DNA from: Clostridia bacterium
Lineage (GTDB): Bacteria > Bacillota > Clostridia > Christensenellales > Borkfalkiaceae
DNA: 61,581 nt
NCBI GenBank assembly: GCA_017626305.1
Contig: JAGAIW010000108.1
Location: forward strand, 1 to 61,581
Reading direction: 5' to 3'
Each line of letters opens with the position of its first letter. Positions within the stretch are counted from its first letter, which is position 1. Shown here one piece after another: positions 9,009-40,498 of this stretch. Under the pieces are notes generated by a model, which was not told the origin of the DNA, made no database searches, and saw nothing but the letters and a program-made list of their open reading frames with translations. Both the position numbers and the translations under genes were made by a program.

Positions 9009-12000
9009 TTATTGATTATTTCTTTTTCTCTTGCTTACGCAGGTAATCGTCACAATAACAATCGCCGCCAAAAGAACGGGAATCGTCATATTGTTGACTA
9101 CGCCGCCACAACCGCCACAACCGTTGTTTGCCGCCGCCTTACCTACGAGAATTTCAAACGTTTCGTTTGTTAAATTACCCGTAGAATCTTGCGCAACGTA
9201 TTCAACGGTATATACACCAACGGTATCCACCGTAGTAGGCACAGAAGTCAAGAGCTCCCCGTTTTTTCGGACGGTTATGCTAACTGTAAGTTCGCCGTCT
9301 ACTTCGTCCGTAGCCGTCGCCGTAGGCAGACGCAACGCATCTCCAACCGAAAGCTTTGTAATATTGAAATCAACCGTGATTACGGGAGCGACTTCGTCTT
9401 TGATAACGACAATTTCAAAACTCTTAGATACGGTGCGTTCGTATTCGTCCACAGCAAGATATACAATGCTGTACGTTCCTGCCTTTTTGGGCGTAAAGGT
9501 ATTATCGGTAAGCTCAACAAGTTCTCCGTCTACAACCACCGAAACCAAAACGTCAAGCGCAGTTGTTCCGCAAGTTGCCGTTGCCTTAGGTAGCGTAATC
9601 ATTTTACCGATATAGCCTTTCTCCTGCATTTCCGTTTCCACTTCCATAACGGCAAGCGTGGGAATATATTGAATATTTCTTATCAGCTCCGTTTGGTTAT
9701 TTGAACCGTCTTTTGCCACGTATTTTACTTGATAAATACCATAGAGTTCCGCGTTATGCGTAAATGCGTCAAACGTCACGAATTCGGTTGCGTTAGGAGC
9801 TTTTACGTATATAGCGATAGCCGTTTCGGCAAGCTCACCCCATGCTGCGTCTTCTGCTTTTACGTTTGCTTTGGATACGTTGAGCGACGAACCTTTTTCT
9901 ACCGTTACAAACGATTCCAACCCGTCTTGCAGAGTAATCACAGGGGCAACGTCGTCAAGCCATTTTGCTTTCAAGATAGCATTACCCATACTAAGCGTGA
10001 TGCTTTCCACTTTGTTGTCTGCGCTATCAAACCAACCGACGAATTTCCAACCAAGCCCCGTCGTTCTGACAGGCTCGGGAAGATATACGTACGGCGCATT
10101 ATCCGAATAATACAAATCGTCCATCGGCACACCGCCGTTTTCATCAAGCGTAATCTTATAACCGTCTTCTACGCGAATGGTTACTGTCTTTTTATACACG
10201 TTTCCGTCCAAAGGATCAGATATAAACGTAATGGATTGATCGCCCGTTTTCGTTACGTCAAGCGTTCCTTGTATGCTCCCTTGGGTTTCAGCAACGATAC
10301 TTCTCGTCCAACCCGTTGCATATTTAAGCTCGTAAGCCAACGAATATTCAAATTTACCGTTTTTCGCCATATAATAAACGTTGTCCATTTCGTTATAGCC
10401 GTTTTTGGAGCTTATCACAAGCGAGCAATCTTGAATACTCATTCTTTCTTTCGCAAAGGACGCGCCGTTGATGGAAAGCAGCATGACAAGCGGAACAGTT
10501 TGCGTTCTATTCGTGCTATCTTTACATATAGAAACGGTATATCCTTGCGTCGTGAACGCCGCTTTAACGTCTGCGTTTTGCCCGTTACTGCAATCGATTT
10601 CACCGATAGGTAGCATTACGGTTTTATATCCTATTACATTTCCTTCGGAATCGATTATTTTATTGGGTTCTTGCATATATGTCACTTTAACGTAAAGCTT
10701 TTGCACGGTTTCGTCGTAGTCGAATACAAGATGTCCCGAAGTTTGTATGAAATTAGAACCGCTCCTAACAAGCCCATGCGGCAAAACGCCTGCATACTTG
10801 CTGGGGAAGTTAGTAACCACGTTGGATTTGTTGGGAAGATTAGTATCGGGTATGTCGGGCGTGGAGTCGTCTATCCACGTGAAATATCCGTCGTCCACTC
10901 TTTCGTCGGCAAGGTCTACGCCGTCGATTTTACCGCTCCAACCGTCACCCGTTGCTTTATAAGACTGCCTTGTCGTATATACGCCGTCGTGATAAAAGTA
11001 TGCGATACCGCCCGTCAAATCGTTGGCTTGGTACGCCCCGCGACCAACGTGGAACAGTTCGTTTCCGGCTAAATCACGAACGGAAAATTGAATAAAACCT
11101 TGCACAGCATACGTGCCAAGAAGGTATTCAACGTCAAAATCGCCTTGGAATACGCCGCCAAGCGTAACGTCGTACGTTTTTTCATTACCAGGGTAAATCA
11201 TAATGCCTTGATTTTCGGTGGCGTAATCGGGATTTTCAAAATATTTTGTTTTGTACGTTTTGATTTTGGTAAATTCGTAGGAAGTATCCGCTTTATCAAT
11301 AACAGATAACGTTTCCACCGTAGGCGAAATGCGGATTACATACTCTTTTGTCAAACCGCCCACGCTTACCGTATATTCGTATTCGCCTGCTGCTTTATCG
11401 GCAAACGTCTCAGCCGCAGTAAAGCTTTCGCCTTGGATATTTACCAAAGTAACGCTATTATTTACTTTTTGTTCAGTTAAATAATGAAATGCACCCAAGC
11501 TATCGCCTTGACAAACGTCAATAACGTTCTTCCCGTTTTCTGTCTTTTCACCTGTATAATAAATACCCGTGCTTTTTGTAGAAATGGTAGGAATATTACC
11601 TTCCGAAAGCGAAACGCCGTTGACGTCTAAAAGAACAACCGCAGGCACTTCGTCATTTGCCCCCTTTCTTAGCGTTTGGTCTTTACGGATACTTACCGTA
11701 TAACCGCCCGTCGTAAACGCCGTTTTAACGTCTGCGTTTTCTGCAAGGGAACAATCGATAACGCCGATAACCTTGTCTTCTTTCGTATAGCCCGTGACTA
11801 TGCCTTTATCCGAATAGCTACTTGGTGTGCCTGCATAAGTAACCTTGGCGTACATTTTATCCGACGTTTCGTCGTAATCAAAAACGAGATTCCCCGATTC
11901 TTGCACGTAATACAATCCCGCGTTACCGATACGGACTAAGCCACGCGGCAATACGTGCTGATATTTATAACCGTCGCTATATACCGTTGCACCTTCCCCT

Positions 12001-12632
12001 TCGTAGGTGTTGGGGTTGGGATAGGTGACGTTGTCCCAAGTATACAAATCGTCGCCTTTAACTGCGTCGCCTTTGTCGCCGTCTCCTGTCGCATTAAAGG
12101 ACTTTCTCGTGGAATATACGCCGTTGCGCGAAAAATATGCAATACCGTTGGACATATCCATGGCTTGATAAGCCGTTCTTCCTACGTGAAATAATTCCTT
12201 TCCATGCAAATCCTTTACGGAAAAGATGGCGCTACCTTGCGCAAAGAAGGTATTGAGTATGTATTCCAGCTTAAAATCCCCCTTAAAAGTTGCGTTTAAG
12301 GGAACTTCCGCTATATCATTTTCCGTTTGCATAAGGTCGATTTGTAACCCCGTGTAAACGCGCTTATTTTCTTCAATATAAAAATCATCTGGATTCTTCC
12401 ACTCTGACGTATCCACGCCGCTTTTTACTGCGTTTGAAATATACGCAGTTCTCGTTGTCATGGAAGGCGTAACGCCGTCTACGGGATTCGCTAGCTGTTG
12501 TACGTTTACGTTTCCAACAACCGTTTCTCCTTCGGCGCTCGCGAAGAGTATGCTTGTCGCACCAAGCGAAAGCGTAAAAGCCAAAGCTGTTGCCGCAAAC
12601 ATGCGACATTTATAGATGGTTCTTCTTTTCAT
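9009..12632 (-). CDS. giant cell-surface protein: duplicated domain, InlB-like repeat, Ig-like domains, Cys-Gly C-terminal anchor
   Basis: The 1207-residue protein begins with a Sec signal ending near FASAEG. Two copies of a long domain follow, at roughly residues 90-345 and 470-730. Both contain a GNELFHVGR- or GKELFHVGR-type motif, an AYF segment, a TGDG segment and a final LL(D/S)(V/I)NG strand. Next come a Listeria-Bacteroides (InlB_B) type repeat with WKFVGWFD and several Ig-like modules. The end is unusual: GCGGCGG at residues 1171-1177, a 17-residue hydrophobic helix, and a basic tail SKRKRNNQ. It looks like a sorting signal but is not LPXTG. The gene follows the 43-residue ORF and precedes the binding protein. 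A role in surface binding of glycans is inferred. Confidence 0.75.
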   Translation of the reverse strand: MKRRTIYKCRMFAATALAFTLSLGATSILFASAEGETVVGNVNVQQLANPVDGVTPSMTTRTAYISNAVKSGVDTSEWKNPDDFYIEENKRVYTGLQIDLMQTENDIAEVPLNATFKGDFKLEYILNTFFAQGSAIFSVKDLHGKELFHVGRTAYQAMDMSNGIAYFSRNGVYSTRKSFNATGDGDKGDAVKGDDLYTWDNVTYPNPNTYEGEGATVYSDGYKYQHVLPRGLVRIGNAGLYYVQESGNLVFDYDETSDKMYAKVTYAGTPSSYSDKGIVTGYTKEDKVIGVIDCSLAENADVKTAFTTGGYTVSIRKDQTLRKGANDEVPAVVLLDVNGVSLSEGNIPTISTKSTGIYYTGEKTENGKNVIDVCQGDSLGAFHYLTEQKVNNSVTLVNIQGESFTAAETFADKAAGEYEYTVSVGGLTKEYVIRISPTVETLSVIDKADTSYEFTKIKTYKTKYFENPDYATENQGIMIYPGNEKTYDVTLGGVFQGDFDVEYLLGTYAVQGFIQFSVRDLAGNELFHVGRGAYQANDLTGGIAYFYHDGVYTTRQSYKATGDGWSGKIDGVDLADERVDDGYFTWIDDSTPDIPDTNLPNKSNVVTNFPSKYAGVLPHGLVRSGSNFIQTSGHLVFDYDETVQKLYVKVTYMQEPNKIIDSEGNVIGYKTVMLPIGEIDCSNGQNADVKAAFTTQGYTVSICKDSTNRTQTVPLVMLLSINGASFAKERMSIQDCSLVISSKNGYNEMDNVYYMAKNGKFEYSLAYELKYATGWTRSIVAETQGSIQGTLDVTKTGDQSITFISDPLDGNVYKKTVTIRVEDGYKITLDENGGVPMDDLYYSDNAPYVYLPEPVRTTGLGWKFVGWFDSADNKVESITLSMGNAILKAKWLDDVAPVITLQDGLESFVTVEKGSSLNVSKANVKAEDAAWGELAETAIAIYVKAPNATEFVTFDAFTHNAELYGIYQVKYVAKDGSNNQTELIRNIQYIPTLAVMEVETEMQEKGYIGKMITLPKATATCGTTALDVLVSVVVDGELVELTDNTFTPKKAGTYSIVYLAVDEYERTVSKSFEIVVIKDEVAPVITVDFNITKLSVGDALRLPTATATDEVDGELTVSITVRKNGELLTSVPTTVDTVGVYTVEYVAQDSTGNLTNETFEILVGKAAANNGCGGCGGVVNNMTIPVLLAAIVIVTITCVSKRKRNNQ

Positions 12633-12708: not shown

Positions 12709-12840
12709 TTAGCTTACGAAAACGTTCCAAGGATTCTCTTGGGAGAAAACGTACATATCTTCTCCCGTAACGGAAGCCGTAATCACGTCTTGCAAAGTCA
12801 TTACGAGCGTCATAATAGGTTGTTCATAATACTTTTTCAT
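12709..12840 (-). CDS. 43-residue peptide with a DVITAS motif, unknown function
   Basis: This short frame starts with ATG at 12840 and ends with TAA at 12709. It is preceded by a strong GGAAGGGGG site eight bases before the ATG, which is why I consider it real. The product begins MKKYYEQPIMTLVMTLQ, continues with DVITAS and VTGEDMYVF, and ends PWNVFVS. It has no signal peptide and no membrane helix. It lies in the 226-base gap between the two giant secreted-protein genes, on the same strand and in the same operon. I recall short gut-Firmicutes proteins with a YE(K/Q)P start followed by DVIT(A/T)S, but could not check this. It could be a regulatory small protein or a peptide precursor. Confidence 0.6.
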   Translation of the reverse strand: MKKYYEQPIMTLVMTLQDVITASVTGEDMYVFSQENPWNVFVS

Positions 12841-12858: not shown

Positions 12859-15800
12859 TTAGGCGTTTGCTACAAAGTAGTATTCAAGCACCGTGCCGCT
12901 TTGTGCAAGCGTTGCGCTGAGTACGCTACCTGCATAGGTTGCGTTAAAAGTATAGCCGTCAATCGTTTTAAGCGGTGCATATACCGTGCAACCGATCGTG
13001 CCATATACCGTTACCGTTTCGGTGGTAACCGTTAAGTCGGCTGCAACCTTGTGATATTTTACGGTGTATGCGGCTACTTTATCAATATAGTTAGTTTGGA
13101 ACCATGCTTTTGCGTCCGCACCAACCTTTTCGTCTGCAACAGCTTTGGTTGCCACTTCGTATACCGAACGGGTGTTGTTGTCCTTATCCCCGTTTGCATA
13201 GTTCAAAAGCTTATACGTTTCTACACCATTGACAACGTAACGGATATAACCGCGAGCTACGAAATCCCGCGCAATGTTTTCTTCCTTAATGTTTACGATA
13301 GAGCCTTGGAAGAAATACGTACCGTCTTCAAATTGACCCAATTCATTTGCGGTAAGGTTGAGAACTTGGGTCTTGCCCGTTTCATTATTCCAACCGTATA
13401 CGGCGTTAGCGCCGAACAGGTTACCCTGCGTAAGCTCGCCGTAAAGCATTTCATAATCCGCAGGAACGATAAACATACCGTAGGAAACTTCCGAATAGTA
13501 CTTGTTTTCGCCCACGTTTGCCATCATAGTTTCATACGTTTCTTTCTTCGCCGTCATTTCAAAACGCAAACCGTTGCTAGCCGCGTCGCCGCCGTAACGA
13601 ATATATGCACCGCTGGTCATATTCAAACCGAATCTATCTTCTAAAACAAGACTTTCCGCAGCGGAAAGCTTACCGTCGCTAAGATCCGCGCCGTTGATAT
13701 TCAACAAAATAACGCTGGATACCCATTTATCGCGTTTTGTAGTATCTCTTGCAAGAGTAACGGTATAGCCACCCTTTTCAAAAGCCGCCTTTACGTCCGC
13801 GTTTTGTCCGTTACTACAATCTACTTCACCGATAGGCATATCGGTAAGCGTACCGAAATCTTTATCGGCGGAATTCGTTGTCTGCGTAGCAAAAGTAACT
13901 TTTATGTACAGCTTTTGCGCTGCTTCGTCCCAGTCAAAGATAAGGTTGCCCGATTGATTTACGTTTTGTGCATTCGAACGGGGCAATACACCTTGATATT
14001 TGTTGGGGAAATTACCCGTAGCGGCACTTTCGTTAGGGAAATCAACCGCCGTCGTATACGTATGGTTTTTATCCCACGTAAAGTAGCCGTCGCCGATTAC
14101 AGCGTCTTCAATCGCTACACCATCAATATTCTTCGCTACGCCGTCGCCCGTCGTCCAATAGTTATATCTCGTCGTAGCCACGTCACCGCGTTGGAAATAA
14201 GCCATACCGTTGGACATATTATTATATTGATAGGTTACGCGGCCAACGCGGAACAGCTCGTTCCCGTTGGTGTCGTTTACAACGAAGAAGAACACACCCA
14301 AGCAGGTATCTCCAGAAAAGATATATTCCATTTTATAATCGCCGACAAAGGTGGATTTGATTGCAACGCTGTCCACCGAATCGCCTTGCATGTTGACAAG
14401 TACGCCGGAATAGGTCTTTTGCTCGGTTTTCGAATAAGAAGTATATTGCGTAGTCGAAGAGAAGGACGCCGTCATACGCGCAGAAGGATCGATAATGGCG
14501 GTTGCGTCAACGTAAGGGCTGACGATAACCTTATACGTCTTGGAAAGACCGTTCTTTTCCACCGTCAATGAATACGTGCCTTTTGCTTTGTCTGCGAAGG
14601 TTTGCGAAGGCGTAACCGTTTCTTCCACAACGGTAGGCATTCCAAGCTGCGAATTATCTGCAAGCTTTTTCGTCGTAATCGTACGGTAAGCAAAGTTATT
14701 CAATTCGCTGCCTAAGGGAAGCTTGATCACGTTTTCTCCGTTGATTTTTTCTTCCCCGACGTATTGAATATCGTTGGTAACGCTTTCTGTATATGATACG
14801 TTCGTGCTCAGGCTTACGTCGTTTAAGGAAAGCAACAACAAATTTTCTACATTTGAAGAACGGTAGGTTTGGTCTTTACCGATACTTACGGTGTAGCCGT
14901 TTTCAAATGCTGCTTTAACGTCTGCGTTTTTACCGTTACTGCAATCGATTTCCCCGATAGGCAGGTCAACCTTTGCGTAATCGACAATTACGCCGCCGTC
15001 ATTTACAACCGTATCTTCGTGACTATTCGCGCAACGGAAGGTGACCTTTGCGTACAGTTTATCCACGCTTTCGTCGTATTCAAAAATCAAATTACCTGCT
15101 TCCTGGAAATAGTATTTCGTCCCCGAAATCGTTTTATCGTAATAACCAAGCGGAAGAACACCCGAATATTTGCTAGAAAAGTTACCGGTAGAACTGCCCA
15201 TATTCGGGAACTGACTAACCGTACCCGTATAATCTGCCCCTATCTTCCACGTGAAATAACCGTCGCCTATTATGGCATCTTTAAGAGTCTGACCGTCGTC
15301 ATTTTTCGTATCGCCGTCACCTGTCGAGCTCACATTTTCACGGGCGGTAGCGATATCGCCACGTTGGAAATACGCAATACCGTTACGGGGATTGATTCCT
15401 TGGTAATGACCGCGGCCGACGCGGAACAGTTCGTTCCCGTCCAAATCGCGGACAATGAAAAACGTAAAGCCATTGTTATACGAGTTAAGGGTTACGTAGG
15501 ACAGCTTGAAATCGCCCGTAAACGTTGCGTTCATTGGCGTTTCCACCGTTGCCATGCTATAAGCGTTTAAATCGACCTTTAAGCCCGTATAGGTAACCTT
15601 TGACGCCTCGTCAGGAACAGCGTTGGAGTTGTTGTTATCCTTATCCGTGGCGTATTGGTGAGACTTATACACGGTGAGCGACTGGTTCTCCGTTACGGTA
15701 AAGGGAGAATTGACAAATAACCCAGACGGAGTTATCGTGCCTGCAACGTCTGCCGTGGCGACAGACGACGTGTTCGGCAATATGTAACCGACGCCCAGCG

Positions 15801-15864
15801 CCGCGCTGAGCACACACGCCGCTACGCAACCGATTATACTGCCTTTTTTTGTTACAGTTTTCAT
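12859..15864 (-). CDS. giant secreted protein with two copies of the locus-specific domain
   Basis: From the chosen ATG at 15864 the protein has 1001 residues and a Sec signal (MKTVTKKG, hydrophobic core, VATA). GGAGG lies 13 bases upstream, a little far. An earlier ATG at 15909 would add 15 residues ahead of the signal peptide and is less likely. Copies of the shared domain lie at about residues 92-340 and 480-720, each with GNELFRVGR, a GIAYFQRGD or GMAYFQRGD element, and a final LLSLND or LLNING strand. The C-terminal 280 residues contain a YGMFIVPADYEMLYG segment and a terminal beta-rich module. Unlike the 1207-residue paralogue it has no C-terminal anchor, so it is probably released or bound non-covalently. 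Confidence 0.72.
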   Translation of the reverse strand: MKTVTKKGSIIGCVAACVLSAALGVGYILPNTSSVATADVAGTITPSGLFVNSPFTVTENQSLTVYKSHQYATDKDNNNSNAVPDEASKVTYTGLKVDLNAYSMATVETPMNATFTGDFKLSYVTLNSYNNGFTFFIVRDLDGNELFRVGRGHYQGINPRNGIAYFQRGDIATARENVSSTGDGDTKNDDGQTLKDAIIGDGYFTWKIGADYTGTVSQFPNMGSSTGNFSSKYSGVLPLGYYDKTISGTKYYFQEAGNLIFEYDESVDKLYAKVTFRCANSHEDTVVNDGGVIVDYAKVDLPIGEIDCSNGKNADVKAAFENGYTVSIGKDQTYRSSNVENLLLLSLNDVSLSTNVSYTESVTNDIQYVGEEKINGENVIKLPLGSELNNFAYRTITTKKLADNSQLGMPTVVEETVTPSQTFADKAKGTYSLTVEKNGLSKTYKVIVSPYVDATAIIDPSARMTASFSSTTQYTSYSKTEQKTYSGVLVNMQGDSVDSVAIKSTFVGDYKMEYIFSGDTCLGVFFFVVNDTNGNELFRVGRVTYQYNNMSNGMAYFQRGDVATTRYNYWTTGDGVAKNIDGVAIEDAVIGDGYFTWDKNHTYTTAVDFPNESAATGNFPNKYQGVLPRSNAQNVNQSGNLIFDWDEAAQKLYIKVTFATQTTNSADKDFGTLTDMPIGEVDCSNGQNADVKAAFEKGGYTVTLARDTTKRDKWVSSVILLNINGADLSDGKLSAAESLVLEDRFGLNMTSGAYIRYGGDAASNGLRFEMTAKKETYETMMANVGENKYYSEVSYGMFIVPADYEMLYGELTQGNLFGANAVYGWNNETGKTQVLNLTANELGQFEDGTYFFQGSIVNIKEENIARDFVARGYIRYVVNGVETYKLLNYANGDKDNNTRSVYEVATKAVADEKVGADAKAWFQTNYIDKVAAYTVKYHKVAADLTVTTETVTVYGTIGCTVYAPLKTIDGYTFNATYAGSVLSATLAQSGTVLEYYFVANA

Positions 15865-15935
15865 AGTTGTTATAAAACCTCCTATAAATATTTTTTTATC
15901 ATTTTCCACGCCTACGTTTCATAGACGTAAATGCC

Positions 15936-23162: not shown

Positions 23163-23195
23163 CAAAAAAAATGAACTCGGGATTATTCCCGAGTT
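23163..23195 (-). terminator. terminator overlapping the stop codon of the ABC exporter gene
   Basis: The nine-base stem AACTCGGGA / TCCCGAGTT with loop TTAT is followed on the minus strand by CA and eight T. The loop is part of the ABC gene's TAA stop region, so the last codons form one arm of the hairpin. Confidence 0.8.
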
Positions 23196-24886
23196 TTTTC
23201 TACGTATTCCATTGTGCCCTTCTCCACGTTGATAACGCCGTCGGCTATATCCAACGCCGCAGGACGATGCGTGACAATTAGACAGGTTTTATTGCGCAAC
23301 GCTTTAATATTTTCCAGCAGTCTTCGCTCCGTATCCCCGTCCAACGCCGACGTGGCTTCGTCCAAGAGCAAAATCGGACGATCGGATAAAACGGCGCGCG
23401 CTACGGCAAGACGTTGCAACTGTCCTTCGGAAAGTCCTTCGCCGCCTTCATACAATGGCGTTTGCAGTCCTTGCGGCAAATCCCAAACAAATTCCGCACA
23501 GGCAACCTGCAAGGCGTTTTTGACTTTTTCCATTAAGCTTGCTTTATCCGTGCAATCACTAAAAAAGGTCAAATTCTCATAAATCGTACCTGAAAACAGA
23601 AAATTTCCTTGCGGGACGTAAGCAAACAATCCACGATATTGCGAAGTAAGCGGCGTCTTACGCTCCTTACCAACGATTGCCATTTGCCCATTTGACGGCT
23701 TATAAACGTTAAGCAGCAGCTTAAATACCGTACTCTTTCCTGCTCCCGACGCGCCCGTCAAGCAAAGGATACTCCCCTTTTCAAACACAGCTGATGCTTT
23801 GTCAAAAACAAGCTCTTCGCCGTACCCAAAAGTAATATCGTTCATGGACACGTTTTGCATATCCGAATAAATAGCAGGAATATCTATTTGCTCGTTATCG
23901 GCGGACAATTCATGCGGTAACGCGTCAATTTCCTGCAAACGTTCCCCACTTGCTAAGCGCGCGTAATACGCAGGAATAACGGACGAAAATGCCGAAAACG
24001 GGTGTTGCAGCTGCATTAAGAGCAAAATAACCGATACGATAGAGCCGTAATCAGTATTTCCACCGTATAAAACGCTAATGCTACACCATACGACGGCAAA
24101 AATCAAACCAAAGTTACTCAAAAGGGAAAATACGGCGCTCATAGAAGAACGAAGTACGTTGCGTTTCATACGTTTTTCATAATAAACGTCGCCGTTTTTA
24201 TCCGCTTTTTCTACCGTTTTTTGTTCCGCGCTATACGATTTTACCGTCATTGTCGAAGTAATGCTTTCTTGCATAAACGAACGGACAACGCCCTCCGCCT
24301 GCATGACTTCTTTATGGCTTTTCTTGATATATTTTCTAAATAAAGCGGTAATCCCGCCGAACATTGTACCGCAAACGACGTAAATAGCCGTAAATAACGG
24401 ATTTATCGTCAATAGCGCCGCAATCGCGCCAAGGCATTGTACTGCCATTCCCACCAGAGCAGGCGCTAAGCCCACCGTATCCGCTGCCACTTCTTGCACG
24501 TCGGCTGTCAATCGATTTAATAAATCGCCGCTATGATAGGATTGCAGACGCGCATAGTCGGAACGAAGTATCTTAGAAAAAATTCTGGAACGGAGCTCTA
24601 CGACGATTCTTGCGCGTAATTTTTCCGCCTGATAATTCGCCACCGTTTGCAAGGCGATACGCAATAAAAGCAACCCAAGAATAACCGCGGAAAACAACCA
24701 TAAAAGCTGTTCCGCCCCCTGTGTTGCGCTATTCAAAAGATATCTTACAATATATGCAAAAGCGAGCGAAAGTAACGTTGTTACCACGCTGAAAACGGTC
24801 AAAAAGACAATGTAACCGCGATAAGGACGCATTTCCCTTTTGAGCCATGCTTTTCCGTCTTTTGTGAGTATCTTTTCCGTTTGCAT
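23183..24886 (-). CDS. ABC exporter, fused membrane and ATPase domains
   Basis: The 567-residue half-transporter has six membrane helices in the first 320 residues and a complete ATPase domain: Walker A LTGASGAGKSTVFKLL, Q-loop region AYVPQGNF, signature LSEGQLQR and Walker B ILLLDEATSALD. This is the ABCB-type exporter layout, used as a homodimer. There is no N-terminal C39 peptidase, so any peptide cargo would need a separate protease. The S26-type peptidase gene ends two bases upstream. It is the last gene of the operon that carries the HPr-kinase-like, PqqD and peptidase genes, which suggests export of a modified peptide. Confidence 0.9.
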   Translation of the reverse strand: MQTEKILTKDGKAWLKREMRPYRGYIVFLTVFSVVTTLLSLAFAYIVRYLLNSATQGAEQLLWLFSAVILGLLLLRIALQTVANYQAEKLRARIVVELRSRIFSKILRSDYARLQSYHSGDLLNRLTADVQEVAADTVGLAPALVGMAVQCLGAIAALLTINPLFTAIYVVCGTMFGGITALFRKYIKKSHKEVMQAEGVVRSFMQESITSTMTVKSYSAEQKTVEKADKNGDVYYEKRMKRNVLRSSMSAVFSLLSNFGLIFAVVWCSISVLYGGNTDYGSIVSVILLLMQLQHPFSAFSSVIPAYYARLASGERLQEIDALPHELSADNEQIDIPAIYSDMQNVSMNDITFGYGEELVFDKASAVFEKGSILCLTGASGAGKSTVFKLLLNVYKPSNGQMAIVGKERKTPLTSQYRGLFAYVPQGNFLFSGTIYENLTFFSDCTDKASLMEKVKNALQVACAEFVWDLPQGLQTPLYEGGEGLSEGQLQRLAVARAVLSDRPILLLDEATSALDGDTERRLLENIKALRNKTCLIVTHRPAALDIADGVINVEKGTMEYVEKTRE

Positions 24887-24888
24887 AC

Positions 24889-25353
24889 TTACTTTTTCCT
24901 AAAAGGCTTTACTACTTTTTTAATTGCAGCCACGCACTTTGCTTTAAAAAGGACGAAAAAACGTCTTCTTTTATACGTTTTTAAGCGTTTTTCTGCGTAG
25001 CGGATATATTTTTCGTCGGTGCAATAATAGTGCTTATCCTTGCGAAAAAACTCCGTTAACACCCCGAAAACAGCGTTTTCAGGAACTTTTTCGTCGCTAT
25101 AACAATTATCGCCGCGAATAATATATCCCCCGTCAATGGGTTGCAAAACACGGTGTAATACGTAGGCGTCGCCACGCTTATATAAGGCCACGTCCAAACG
25201 TTTTAAGCGTTCGGTTTTCGGTTTTACGACGATAGTATCCCGTCTATTTTTTAACATGGGCAGCATACTAATCCCTACCGTCGGCCCAACGTATACGCCT
25301 TTTTGCGCAAGAACGTCTTCAATTTTCAATTTTTGTTCCGAACGCGTTTCCAT
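24889..25353 (-). CDS. S24/S26-family signal-peptidase-like protein
   Basis: The 154-residue protein carries the catalytic serine motif GISMLPML and a later YVLHRVL segment followed by IIRGDNCYSDE. Ser plus His is the arrangement of archaeal/ER-type (SipW-like) signal peptidases rather than the Ser-Lys pair of bacterial SipS. No membrane helix is visible; the C-terminus is strongly basic. It starts six bases after the PqqD stop and ends two bases before the ABC exporter. In this context it could remove the leader of an exported peptide. The start at 25353 has only a weak GGAAT-type site, in keeping with translational coupling. Confidence 0.72.
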   Translation of the reverse strand: METRSEQKLKIEDVLAQKGVYVGPTVGISMLPMLKNRRDTIVVKPKTERLKRLDVALYKRGDAYVLHRVLQPIDGGYIIRGDNCYSDEKVPENAVFGVLTEFFRKDKHYYCTDEKYIRYAEKRLKTYKRRRFFVLFKAKCVAAIKKVVKPFRKK

Positions 25354-25359
25354 GCGATA

Positions 25360-25620
25360 TTATTCCGCAAACCCTTGCGAGATTGCTTCGACGAATTTCG
25401 CCACGTCTTTTTGCGCGATTTCTTCGCTTACGTCGTATTCCGCGAGCAAAGCCGCAACCGCTTCTTCTTGCGTATGATCTTCCGCAAAGAATTTCCAAAG
25501 GAACGCGCCCGTTTCATTTAACGTAATCATGCCATGGAATTTTTTGCTCATTTCACCTACGGGCACAACGACGTTTTCGCCGCCTACACTACGTAAAATC
25601 AATCCACTTTTTATCTTCAT
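25360..25620 (-). CDS. PqqD-family peptide-binding protein
   Basis: The 86-residue protein matches PqqD in length and pattern: VVVPVGEMSKKFHGMITLN, then ETGAFLWKFFAE, a helix with EEAVAALLAEYDV, and the ending DVAKFVEAISQGF. PqqD-type domains (RiPP recognition elements) bind the leader of a precursor peptide and pass it to modifying enzymes. A GGGAG site lies upstream. It stands between the HPr-kinase-like protein and the peptidase. No radical SAM enzyme, cyclase or obvious precursor is adjacent, so the enzyme it serves is either the kinase-like protein or encoded elsewhere. Confidence 0.85.
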   Translation of the reverse strand: MKIKSGLILRSVGGENVVVPVGEMSKKFHGMITLNETGAFLWKFFAEDHTQEEAVAALLAEYDVSEEIAQKDVAKFVEAISQGFAE

Positions 25621-25637
25621 AATTTCTCCCTCTCCGA

Positions 25638-26354
25638 TTATAACGGATATTTTTTTCCTGTTAAGGCTTCAAACGATAATTTTACCGCTTCTTCCGATAT
25701 CGTGCATTTCAAAAGATAAGACGGCACAATCGTTACCAGCTTATCCAAAAGCTCCAAAGTTTTTTCGGCATTTTCCATATCTTGCGGCATCAATACCTGC
25801 GTAAAAATGCGATTTGCCGCTTGTGCGGGAGTTAAACGAACAATTTCATTTATCGGGGATTGTTCTAAAAAGCATAAGCCTTTTAAAGGCGCTACCGTAT
25901 TACTCCCCAAGCCTTCCTTTCCCATCCACGGCGTACCGTATGCCAAAAATTCATTGTCTTTCCATTGTAAAATGGGTTTATCGCCATTGACGATACGCAC
26001 TCCGTCAAGATGTTTGCACCAAAGCCCCGTATGGGTGGATTTTCCCGTACCGCTTTTACCCAAGAAGGCAAACGCTTCATTTTCATACTGCAAAATAGCC
26101 GAATGTAGTAAAAAACGGTCTAAATTAGGAAGTTGCTTGCAAATATTGCGATATAAGCAAATATTTTCAATATACCCGTCCGAAAAGTTTCCAGGATTAC
26201 TCTTTTCCGCATAAAATTCTTCGTTGGTTACAAAAACGGATAAATCCGCCGCGGAAATTTGATTGTCGGACAAATAGCCTTCGCAAAATTTTTCGGTGAA
26301 TTTGCATCTATTTTGAATGTCAATTCTAAGACCTGCAATATCGTAAATCATCAT
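25638..26354 (-). CDS. HPr-kinase-like / PEP-carboxykinase-like ATP-binding protein
   Basis: The 238-residue protein has an N-terminal domain of about 90 residues and then FLLHSAILQYENEAFAFLGK, leading into the P-loop GKSGTGKST with HTGLWC after it. Further on come VNGDKPILQW and YGTPWMGKEG. This is the HprK-related family often found with PqqD; relatives in some lasso-peptide clusters phosphorylate the peptide C-terminus. Two ATGs stand in a row at 26354 and 26351; GTGGGG upstream favours the second. The gene begins 21 bases after purB, so it is transcribed with the housekeeping genes. Peptide phosphorylation is an inference. Confidence 0.8.
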   Translation of the reverse strand: MMIYDIAGLRIDIQNRCKFTEKFCEGYLSDNQISAADLSVFVTNEEFYAEKSNPGNFSDGYIENICLYRNICKQLPNLDRFLLHSAILQYENEAFAFLGKSGTGKSTHTGLWCKHLDGVRIVNGDKPILQWKDNEFLAYGTPWMGKEGLGSNTVAPLKGLCFLEQSPINEIVRLTPAQAANRIFTQVLMPQDMENAEKTLELLDKLVTIVPSYLLKCTISEEAVKLSFEALTGKKYPL

Positions 26355-26375: not shown

Positions 26376-27812
26376 TTACACGCGAACGTCACCCTTTTCC
26401 CCAAGCAAATCGGCGTGCTTTTCCAAAATCGGGTCAATTTCGTTTTGAATAAATTCCACCGTTTGAGAAGGCGCTCTGCCGATAAATTTCTTCGCGTCTA
26501 AAATTTCGTCTAATTTATCCCAAACAGGTGTGAACATTTCATCTTTTTTGATCAGTTCGATAAGATTATTTTCTAAACCTTCCACTTTAACGTTTTTACC
26601 TGCTTCCATGGAAAGAACGCGGATACGTTCGTGCAATTCTTGACGGTTTCCGCCCTTCTTAACACATTCCATCATGATATTTTCCGTCGCCATAAACGGC
26701 AGTTCCGCGCGAATGTGCTTAGCGATAACCTTTTCGTATACGACTAAATTTTCCGCAACGTTCATATAAATATTCAAAATGGCGTCGACAGACAAAAATG
26801 CCTGCGCGTTGACGATACGACGATTCGCCGAGTCGTCCAACGTACGCTCGAACCATTGCGTAGACGCGGTGATTGCGCTGTTCGTCGGCAACGAAAGAAC
26901 GTATCTCGCCAACGAACCGATACGCTCGGAGCGCATGGGATTACGTTTATACGCCATGGCCGACGAACCGATTTGATTTTTCTCAAACGGTTCTTCAATT
27001 TCCTTCATATTTTGCAAAATACGGATATCGTTAGAGAATTTATAAGCGCTTTGCGCGATTTGCGAAAGAACGGATATGATATTATAATCGAGCTTACGGG
27101 GATACGTTTGCCCCGTAACGCCGTAAACTTTATCGTAACCAAGCTTGGCAACAACGCGTTTTTCCAGCTCTTTGACTTTATCTTCGTCGCCGTTAAAAAG
27201 CTCCATAAAGCTTGCTTGCGTACCCGTCGTGCCTTTTACCCCGCGAAGTTTAATACAAGCTTTTGCGTGCATTAAATTTTCGTAATCCATTTCCAAATCC
27301 TGCAACCAAAGGGTGGCGCGTTTACCAACCGTCGTCAGCTGCGCGGGTTGTAAATGGGTAAAACCAAGAGTCGGCACGTCTTTATATTGCAAAGCGAATT
27401 TTTTCAGCTTATCCATGACGTTGACAAGCTTTTTCAAAACGATATCCAAAGCTTCGTCAAGCATAATCGCTTCGGCGTTACAGTTGACAAAACAACTCGT
27501 CGCGCCAAGGTGTATAATAGGCATGGCTTTCTTTGCATAAGCCCCGTACGCCTTTACGTGCGCCATAACGTCGTGGCGGACTTCTCTTTCAAATTTTGCC
27601 GCAAGCTCGTAATCGATATCGTCGGCAAACGCTTTGAGTTCGTCTACCTGCTCGGAAGTGACGTTGAGTCCAAGCTCCATTTCCGATTCCGCCAAAGCAA
27701 TCCAAAGCTTTCTCCAAAGCTTGAAACGCTTTTCATCAGAAAACGCGTGCTGCATCTCCTTGCTTGCATATCTTGTAATTAACGGGTTGGTATAAATGCT
27801 ATTATCCGTCAT
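26376..27812 (-). CDS. purB: adenylosuccinate lyase
   Basis: The 478-residue enzyme splits adenylosuccinate and SAICAR to release fumarate in purine synthesis. The family signature GSSAMAYKRNPMRSERIG is intact, as are TSCFVNCN (His/Ser loop region) and THLQPAQLTTVGKR in the substrate site. The length is normal for the clostridial form. AAGGAG precedes the ATG. It lies in one operon with the upstream cyclophilin and dCMP deaminase and the downstream peptide cassette; no other pur genes are in the window. Confidence 0.96.
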   Translation of the reverse strand: MTDNSIYTNPLITRYASKEMQHAFSDEKRFKLWRKLWIALAESEMELGLNVTSEQVDELKAFADDIDYELAAKFEREVRHDVMAHVKAYGAYAKKAMPIIHLGATSCFVNCNAEAIMLDEALDIVLKKLVNVMDKLKKFALQYKDVPTLGFTHLQPAQLTTVGKRATLWLQDLEMDYENLMHAKACIKLRGVKGTTGTQASFMELFNGDEDKVKELEKRVVAKLGYDKVYGVTGQTYPRKLDYNIISVLSQIAQSAYKFSNDIRILQNMKEIEEPFEKNQIGSSAMAYKRNPMRSERIGSLARYVLSLPTNSAITASTQWFERTLDDSANRRIVNAQAFLSVDAILNIYMNVAENLVVYEKVIAKHIRAELPFMATENIMMECVKKGGNRQELHERIRVLSMEAGKNVKVEGLENNLIELIKKDEMFTPVWDKLDEILDAKKFIGRAPSQTVEFIQNEIDPILEKHADLLGEKGDVRV

Positions 27813-39174: not shown

Positions 39175-40498
39175 GATAGTCCTCCGTTTCTCCGTATAAA
39201 TCATAACTGTCCGCATTCGTTATCAAAACGTTGTACCGCTCGCCTTGCATGGCATACGCGGCGTGAAAATATATCTTTCCGTCGATATCGGGCGCATTAA
39301 AATACGCTCTTCCGATAAAGCAGTTGCGTTCGTAGTCAATCCCGTCGCAAACGACTTCAAGATTTTTGCCAACGTATTTGGAAAGCAACGTTGCGGATAT
39401 TTGTTCCTGTGTTTGATAAAGCGCCTTTACTCTACGCTGTTTGGTGGAGTGATGGATTTGCCCTTTCATTCTATAAGCCGCCGTATCCGGTTCGCGCGAG
39501 TAGGCAAAAAATCCGCAATTTAAAAGCTTTGCCTGTCGTAAAAAGGCTTGCATACTTTCAAATTCTTCTTCCGTTTCCGACGGAAAACCGCTGATAAACG
39601 TAGAACGAATAACGATATCGGGAATACGCTTACGCAATTTTTCAAACAGTTGCAAATACCCTTCTCTCGTCCCCTTTCGGTTCATGAGTTTCAACACTCT
39701 ATCTTCCGAATGTTGCAACGGAATATCGAGATATTTCAAAATTTTTGGATTTATCGCGATTTCTTCAATAAGTTCGTCGGTTATGACGTCGGGATAACAA
39801 TACAGCAAACGAATAGTGTGGATATTTTCCAAATTGGAAAGCTTTTGCAATAACTCCACAAACGTATTTTTCCCGTATAAATCTTCACCGTAGCGCGTTG
39901 TGTCTTGCGCAACAAGAATAAGTTCTGCCGTATCGCCAAGTTCCTGAGCTTCTTTTAAAAGGTCTTCTATCGGATAGGAACGATATTTCCCACGGATTTT
40001 AGGAATCAGACAATACGTACAATGGTTATAGCAGCCGTCCGCAATTTTCAAATATGCATAATGGTCGGGAGTCGTAACGCTGCGCGCATACGAATAAATA
40101 TCACCGCCCGTCGCAACGTAATTTTGACGTTTGTCTTCGTCATACGAACGCTGTAAAGTTTCAAATATCTTTTGGTATTCGTTAATCCCCAAAAAGACGT
40201 CGACTTCTATCAAGGGTTGATACAATTCGTCTATATATTTTTGTGGCAAACAGCCCGTTACAACGATTTTTTCCAAACGTTCCTTTTTATATTCAGCACA
40301 TTCAAGAATGGTATCAATGGCTTCTTCTCGCGCAACACGCAAAAACGCGCACGTATTGATAATGAGAATTTGCGCTTTGGATAAATCGTCCGTAAGCTTG
40401 CAGCCTTTTTGTTTTAATAAACCGATAAGTTTTTCGCTGTCTACGCGATTTTTATCGCAACCAAGCGAAATCACTCCAAACAGCTTGTCCGTAATCAT
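39161..40498 (-). CDS. rimO: ribosomal protein S12 methylthiotransferase
   Basis: The 445-residue radical SAM enzyme adds a methylthio group to an aspartate of ribosomal protein S12. The family hallmark SLGCDKNRVDSE and the Cys residues INTCAF and VTGCLPQ bind the auxiliary cluster. CYNHCTYCLIPKIRGKYRS binds the catalytic one, and a TRAM-like domain ends the protein. Homologous MiaB lacks the DKNRVDSE form. It lies 14 bases after ftsK and overlaps pgsA. Confidence 0.96.
   Translation of the reverse strand: MITDKLFGVISLGCDKNRVDSEKLIGLLKQKGCKLTDDLSKAQILIINTCAFLRVAREEAIDTILECAEYKKERLEKIVVTGCLPQKYIDELYQPLIEVDVFLGINEYQKIFETLQRSYDEDKRQNYVATGGDIYSYARSVTTPDHYAYLKIADGCYNHCTYCLIPKIRGKYRSYPIEDLLKEAQELGDTAELILVAQDTTRYGEDLYGKNTFVELLQKLSNLENIHTIRLLYCYPDVITDELIEEIAINPKILKYLDIPLQHSEDRVLKLMNRKGTREGYLQLFEKLRKRIPDIVIRSTFISGFPSETEEEFESMQAFLRQAKLLNCGFFAYSREPDTAAYRMKGQIHHSTKQRRVKALYQTQEQISATLLSKYVGKNLEVVCDGIDYERNCFIGRAYFNAPDIDGKIYFHAAYAMQGERYNVLITNADSYDLYGETEDYHELT

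Follow-up and report, generated by a model that had tools for sequence, protein, structure and literature searches.

What could four tightly packed genes act upon, when they encode an HprK-like kinase, a PqqD protein, a protein of signal peptidase fold and an ATP-binding cassette (ABC) exporter, and no peptide substrate is encoded among them? The genes occupy positions 23183-26354 of a 61,581-nucleotide stretch of DNA (contig JAGAIW010000108.1 of the Clostridia bacterium assembly GCA_017626305.1, family Borkfalkiaceae), which we call the window. A sequence-only reading had described the cassette as a toolkit that binds, modifies, cleaves and exports a peptide, possibly a phosphorylated one, and had found no precursor for it. 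The compact four-gene block is confirmed, and its gaps contain no small gene. The toolkit, with a linear phosphorylated peptide as its product, is still the best reading, as a similar gene set from Paenibacillus gave a multiply phosphorylated core serine in Bacillus subtilis (Popov et al. 2026, PMC13381572). The missing precursor, on the other hand, has a candidate: it is encoded in trans, at 12709-12840 of the window, with ten further places in the genome at E≤0.001. We consider it likely that the cassette is the handling core of a system for ribosomally synthesized and post-translationally modified peptides (RiPPs) that resembles the linear polyphosphorylated peptides (LPP), and that its substrates are many small precursors encoded in trans at dispersed sites of the genome.

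The paper of Popov et al. 2026 (PMC13381572) introduced LPP and examined one cluster, from Paenibacillus, by experiment. When the cluster of Paenibacillus alginolyticus was expressed in Bacillus subtilis, the kinase LppK put several phosphates on Ser3 of the core, and LppS cut after residue -1, aided by the RiPP recognition element (RRE) LppB; LppD was called an export pump. Removal of LppN changed nothing in this host, and the final product was not found. In the crystal structure 9x8z, D70 and N33 of LppB hold Tyr -16 and the kink at Pro -13. The role of LPP was called unknown and their occurrence in Bacilli extremely patchy, and the search for precursors reached 5 kb.

The four genes resemble the core of an LPP cluster

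The same four genes stand in the same order at 29 of the 30 loci fetched from the genus, the remaining locus ending at a contig edge. The search by gene order proposed in the sequence-only reading thus speaks against chance co-occurrence in a single genome, and that explanation is ruled out. The kinase is found in 35 of 57 same-genus genomes at E≤0.001; two of these matches (G008 and G045) are weak and lie, as we read them, in unrelated frames, and 33 genomes were kept.

Among 25 aligned kinase sequences, the P-loop (GKSGTGKS in the window protein) and the motif NGDKP are invariant. Against Pfam the kinase gives nothing above cut-off, and its profile, compared with the sequences of solved structures, retrieves mostly the P-loops of ABC proteins. 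Its predicted fold matches PEPCK and HprK/P, and it is by these fold searches that the kinase fold, as modelled, is settled. For the peptidase, the motifs SMxP, HRV and RGDN are conserved in 21 sequences, with S29 and H67 invariant and D82 or E88 as candidates for the acidic member of the triad. Its profile finds no useful match among the sequences of solved structures; its predicted fold matches SipA and LepB, and fold searches and motifs together support its putative identity as a leader peptidase. The best NCBIfam models for the exporter are MsbA models, with scores below their cut-offs.

The PqqD protein offers a more specific comparison. In an alignment to 9x8z that is itself weak (E 0.55), its residues N35, Y62, D72 and F76 fall on N33, Y60, D70 and F74 of LppB. 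N35, Y62 and F76 are present in 29 of 29 same-genus genomes, and D72 in 28 of 29.

A candidate precursor is encoded away from the cassette

The open reading frame (ORF) at 12709-12840, first picked by a loose regular expression, is preceded by a good ribosome-binding site and encodes the peptide MKKYYEQPIMTLVMTLQDVITASVTGEDMYVFSQENPWNVFVS, with the predicted core TASVTGEDMYVFSQENPWNVFVS. If the peptide were cut after residue 20, Tyr would stand at -16, Pro at -13 and Ser at +3, which is exactly the register of the LPP precursor LppA. A leader profile was then built from 24 such leaders. With the three rows from this genome taken out, the profile gives the ORF 37.4 bits (E 5.6e-11), as compared to a maximum of 12.0 bits among 100 first-order Markov copies of the window. 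With the full profile, the window genome yields 17 places at E≤0.1, of which 11, among them the ORF itself, reach E≤0.001; 46 of the 57 genomes of the genus have at least one place at E≤0.1. Ten members of the family were compared with Pfam and NCBIfam, and no model matched.

Peptide statistics were taken from 68 different peptides of the fetched same-genus loci, which are part of all profile places listed. By our pattern, 62 of the 68 have a ribosome-binding site. YxxP occurs in 40 of the 68 and the wider [YFW]xxP in 44. All 66 cores with a clear motif are acidic, with a median length of 21 residues, and 42 of them contain Trp. The distance from Pro to Ser equals that of LppA (15) in 9 of the 42 peptides measured, the window copy being one of them.

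From these features we infer the following order of events. The PqqD protein would bind the YxxP stretch of the precursor leader, and the HprK-like kinase would then add at least one phosphate to the conserved Ser that follows shortly after the D-V-x motif (Ser23 in the window copy). Next, the signal-peptidase-like Ser/His protease, aided by the RRE, would cut after about residue 20-21. Finally, the MsbA-like exporter would release a linear, acidic phosphopeptide of about 20 residues.

Leader peptides and the kinase tend to occur together across the order

If the cassette serves these peptides, the two should be found in the same genomes. Across 396 genomes of the order, leader ORFs (E≤0.001) are present in 18 and the kinase in 46, with both in 16. 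When the four genomes of the same genus are left out, the kinase is found in 14 of 16 leader genomes as compared to 28 of 376 others (Fisher p 3e-13, relatedness uncorrected); when five weak kinase matches are left out as well, the figures are 14 of 16 and 23 of 376 (p 4e-14). In two genomes (G296 and G311) a leader-profile match is no more than 1 kb away from the kinase gene. The kinase and PqqD genes of Ruminococcus flavefaciens ND2009 have a similar ORF between them, which is itself one of the 24 rows of the profile. Among 38 distant loci, at least five (L184, L187, L210, L215 and L220) have leader-like small ORFs on the same strand, within the cassette or adjoining it; these were picked by a loose pattern, with no chance control.

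Several observations weigh against the proposed reading. The nearest candidate precursor lies about 10.3 kb from the exporter gene and the others are on other contigs; no leader-type ORF was seen within the cassette. Even [YFW]xxP is absent from 24 of the 68 genus peptides, and in 33 of 42 the Pro-to-Ser distance is 16, one residue longer than in LppA. Ser is present at D+5 in 63 of 67 genus peptides, a conservation that is partly due to selection, since the profile includes the Asp and Ser columns. LPP leaders carry Px9Fx[T/A] (F-E-T), whereas those described here have D-V-x, with Asp replacing Phe. The association in the order is uncorrected for relatedness; there, 30 of the 46 genomes with the kinase show no leader match at E≤0.001, and two (G066 and G369) have a leader without the kinase. 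Within the genus, leader peptides are found in 29 of 33 kinase genomes as compared to 17 of 24 others, which is not significant (p 0.10), possibly because many of the genomes are incomplete. Furthermore, RRE binding, phosphorylation and cleavage were demonstrated in the Paenibacillus system, and are predictions here.

Candidate precursor genes tend to follow large genes, mostly for secreted-looking proteins

The large gene upstream of the window's candidate precursor is typical in its placement of the peptide family. A gene of at least 500 residues lies upstream on the same strand, within 250 bases, for 25 of 33 peptides with enough upstream sequence, as compared to 11 of 169 control genes taken from cassette neighbourhoods. 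In 13 of these 25 cases the start of the large gene was not visible; in the other 12 it lies well within the fetched sequence, and a simple test finds a signal-like hydrophobic segment in 10 of them. A few peptides instead follow transporter-like permease genes. This preference for positions behind large genes, whose proteins mostly look secreted, makes the cell surface the probable place of action of the product.

In the window, three large genes that are secreted-looking or lipoprotein-like surround the 43-residue ORF, between 9009 and 16877. One large gene of this region has surface Ig-like matches as well as weak matches to Listeria-Bacteroides repeats. The protein encoded at 12859-15909 matches nothing in Pfam at E≤0.01.

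Table 1. Features of the window discussed in the text, with their positions and the basis of each assignment
Feature	Position	Strand	Basis
LppK-like kinase, HprK/PEPCK superfamily fold, 238 aa	25638..26354	-	ORF, conserved columns, predicted fold
LppB-like discrete RRE (PqqD), 86 aa	25360..25620	-	PF05402, E 9e-17
LppS-like leader peptidase, signal peptidase I fold, Ser29/His67, 154 aa	24889..25353	-	Motifs and fold match
LppD-like exporter, MsbA-like ABC half transporter without C39 domain, 567 aa	23183..24886	-	PF00664 and PF00005
Candidate precursor peptide, 43 aa; predicted leader 1-20, predicted phosphoacceptor Ser23	12709..12840	-	Ribosome-binding site, profile
Large gene, 1016 aa, 18 bases upstream of the 43-aa ORF; N-terminus judged signal-like by eye	12859..15909	-	ORF
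Gene for a large surface-type protein, 1207 aa, downstream of the 43-aa ORF	9009..12632	-	PF16403 bacterial surface Ig-like match
purB-like gene directly upstream of the cassette, conserved neighbour	26376..27812	-	Position in relatives' loci
Terminator-like hairpin at the end of the exporter gene	23174..23195	-	9-pair stem, then T run; consensus match only

A C-terminal tail shared by lipoprotein-like proteins and some leader peptides

A second group of small proteins has a claim to be the substrate. Of 20 loci examined, chosen with a preference for wide gaps or unusual surroundings, 9 (L037, L039-L044, L046 and L032) have small lipoprotein-like ORFs with the ending W[ST]x[NF][YH] directly upstream of the kinase; in seven of the 9 the purB-like gene stands on the other side of these ORFs. 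The tail pattern occurs at 51 places in 30 of the 57 same-genus genomes, against 18 places for a reversed control pattern, and a slightly narrower pattern is found in 55 of the 396 order genomes. Among the ORFs seen, its carriers are mostly lipoprotein-like and repeat proteins. Both G020 and G027 have one continuous stretch made up of a leader peptide and two lipoprotein-like ORFs with endings of this kind. All this would fit an alternative in which the small tailed lipoproteins upstream of the kinase are the true substrates, phosphorylated on the Ser or Thr of the tail, with the YxxP peptides serving another system. However, lipoproteins exit by Sec and show no RRE-binding leader, and no protein of the window genome fits the narrower pattern exactly; with one mismatch allowed, there is a single one, which ends in WTGYY. 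In addition, the tail ends five leader peptides themselves (those of G020, G027 and G051 with FxxP leaders, those of G028 and G044 with YxxP), which ties the two groups to one system rather than two. We regard this alternative as rather unlikely.

Since the window genome lacks an exact match, the tail cannot be a general substrate rule, and a W[ST]xNY tail as the sole mark of a substrate was dropped as such. The tail common to small lipoprotein-like proteins and some leader peptides was also seen at further loci (L266, L269 and L077). One large tailed protein was scanned against NCBIfam, and no model matched its tail. Beyond the tail, the ends of peptides and of their neighbouring proteins were compared by eye, and we claim no similarity between them. 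The reading of the cassette as an LPP-like core does not account for the tail.

Other enzymes that may modify the peptides

The sequence-only reading had also raised the kinase as possibly the only modifying enzyme. In the genome as a whole the kinase may have company, in the form of a PF14907 protein on another contig and 14 matches to radical SAM enzymes. PF14907 comprises nucleotidyltransferases of the LppN type, and its sole match in the window genome (G000, locus L400, contig C108:23756-24502) is unlinked to the cassette. The setting of this gene looks like a polysaccharide locus. In three other genomes (G035, G055 and G056) a PF14907 gene lies directly behind the exporter gene. Of the 57 genomes of the genus, 32 have a member of this family; it is present in 26 of the 33 kinase genomes and in 6 of the 24 others (p 6e-5, completeness uncorrected). 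G027, G029 and G044 carry two PF14907 copies in tandem.

Of the 14 radical SAM matches, 12 are over the cut-off, and they lend some weight to the idea that the product is a cyclised or cross-linked RiPP, of radical SAM or lasso type, with the gene for its modifying enzyme at some other place in the genome. So do four of the 38 distant loci (L184, L210, L215 and L219), from other families, where radical SAM/SPASM maturases adjoin the related kinase and PqqD genes; PF14907 proteins were found at two others (L187 and L200), both counts being made from ten neighbour proteins scanned. The maturases at these loci would point to a wider RiPP class with a common core. Neighbours in the other loci of the genus were listed by size. 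Yet the radical SAM match nearest to the cassette (39542-40045 in the window) lies about 13 kb away, and Cys is nearly absent from the cores (2 of 66). A cyclised or cross-linked product is, in our view, improbable.

Place and inheritance of the cassette

The next large gene upstream of the kinase is purB-like in 22 of the 30 same-genus loci, in some with a small ORF between the two, and PPI-like in 2; the cassette is placed elsewhere in 4, and 2 are cut by contig ends. The gene names purB, PPI and GroEL are assumed, in part following the sequence-only reading. Across 20 loci, PurB and peptidase distances correlate (Mantel r 0.46). The correlations of PurB with the kinase (r 0.27) and with PqqD (r 0.31) are weak, with 40 and 33 of 2000 permutations as high, and strict vertical descent is therefore not claimed. 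The stable place behind the purB-like gene and the correlation with PurB could suggest a housekeeping or sugar-metabolism role, with the kinase regulating an intracellular protein and the exporter moving a lipid or glycan. Such a role is highly improbable: the block combines an RRE and a protein of leader-peptidase fold with an exporter, and in the order the occurrence of its kinase follows that of small leader-type ORFs.

Plasmids gave no match, either in a DNA search with the kinase-PqqD-peptidase block or in a protein search with the peptidase, and unannotated phage records gave two distant, partial kinase matches only; a mobile-element reading of the cassette was dropped on these results. 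The close named relatives were recovered from the gut metagenomes of goats, sheep, deer, chicken and other hosts, and most are labelled Clostridia or Clostridiales. One relative (L045, genome G007) has its kinase gene broken into two frames. At L205 and L206, which belong to a different genus of the family, the kinase and PqqD genes adjoin a DUF1846 gene, and no match to a peptidase was found close by.

Constitutive expression from the promoter of the purB operon, as had been suggested, would fit the gene spacing. Immediately before the PqqD gene there is also a good promoter-like match (25664-25637). Promoter-like sites in the region (19, with 11.1 expected by chance, sd 3.5) and terminator-like sites (11, with 8.0 expected, sd 2.9) are near chance numbers.

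Comparison with known systems

The cassette shares with the LPP clusters of PMC13381572 an HprK-like kinase, a discrete RRE, a putative leader peptidase of signal-peptidase type and an MsbA-like exporter. Neither has a cyclase among these four genes, and in the window copy the YxxP leader and the Ser stand in equal register. The predicted leader pocket is of the Tyr type in both (N35 and D72 here, N33 and D70 in LppB, by the weak alignment with E 0.55). A PF14907 nucleotidyltransferase is likewise present in the genome, unlinked here, unlike LppN, which lies in the gene cluster. The export step is inferred in both systems. The precursors differ in being dispersed rather than clustered, often behind genes for large, mostly secreted-looking proteins, and the place of the cassette is stable in 22 of 30 loci of one genus, in contrast to the patchy occurrence in Bacilli. 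Given that a linked precursor and Px9Fx[T/A] were not found and that the LppN-type gene is unlinked, the system is not filed as a strict member of the LPP.

The phosphorylated lasso peptides of the paeninodin type, as presented in the same paper, also combine an HprK-like kinase, a discrete RRE, an NTP transferase and a Y/WxxP leader logic. In contrast to them, the four genes include no B2 cysteine peptidase or macrolactam synthetase, enzymes for which the genome itself was not searched, and the RRE residues (N35 and D72) are Tyr-type, not Trp-type. The prochlorosins (PMC10783134) provide a parallel in that one solitary enzyme (ProcM) serves many precursors; they differ in their lanthionine chemistry, Nif11-type leaders and cyanobacterial hosts, and we claim no sequence relation. 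A literature search on RiPPs with distant precursors returned no result, one paper among those searched uses the name linear polyphosphorylated peptide, and in the sources consulted dispersed LPP precursors were not found described.

Implications

The gene set itself is known as the LPP core, and the dispersed precursors would be the feature of an LPP-like variant. As a tentative extension to the whole genus, there could be a single purB-linked phosphopeptide machine with one dedicated small peptide for each operon of a giant secreted protein, so that each operon would have its own exported phosphopeptide as a tag, partner or signal for that protein, and the C-terminal tail would be a second part of the same surface system; we consider this less likely than not. 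A genus in which the machinery mostly stays in one place and the candidate precursors lie beside genes for large, mostly secreted-looking proteins provides a lead on the function of LPP, and its dozens of natural candidate precursors could be used for testing the rules of the kinase and the peptidase. For genome mining, it follows that cluster-based searches can miss RiPP precursors encoded far from their enzymes.

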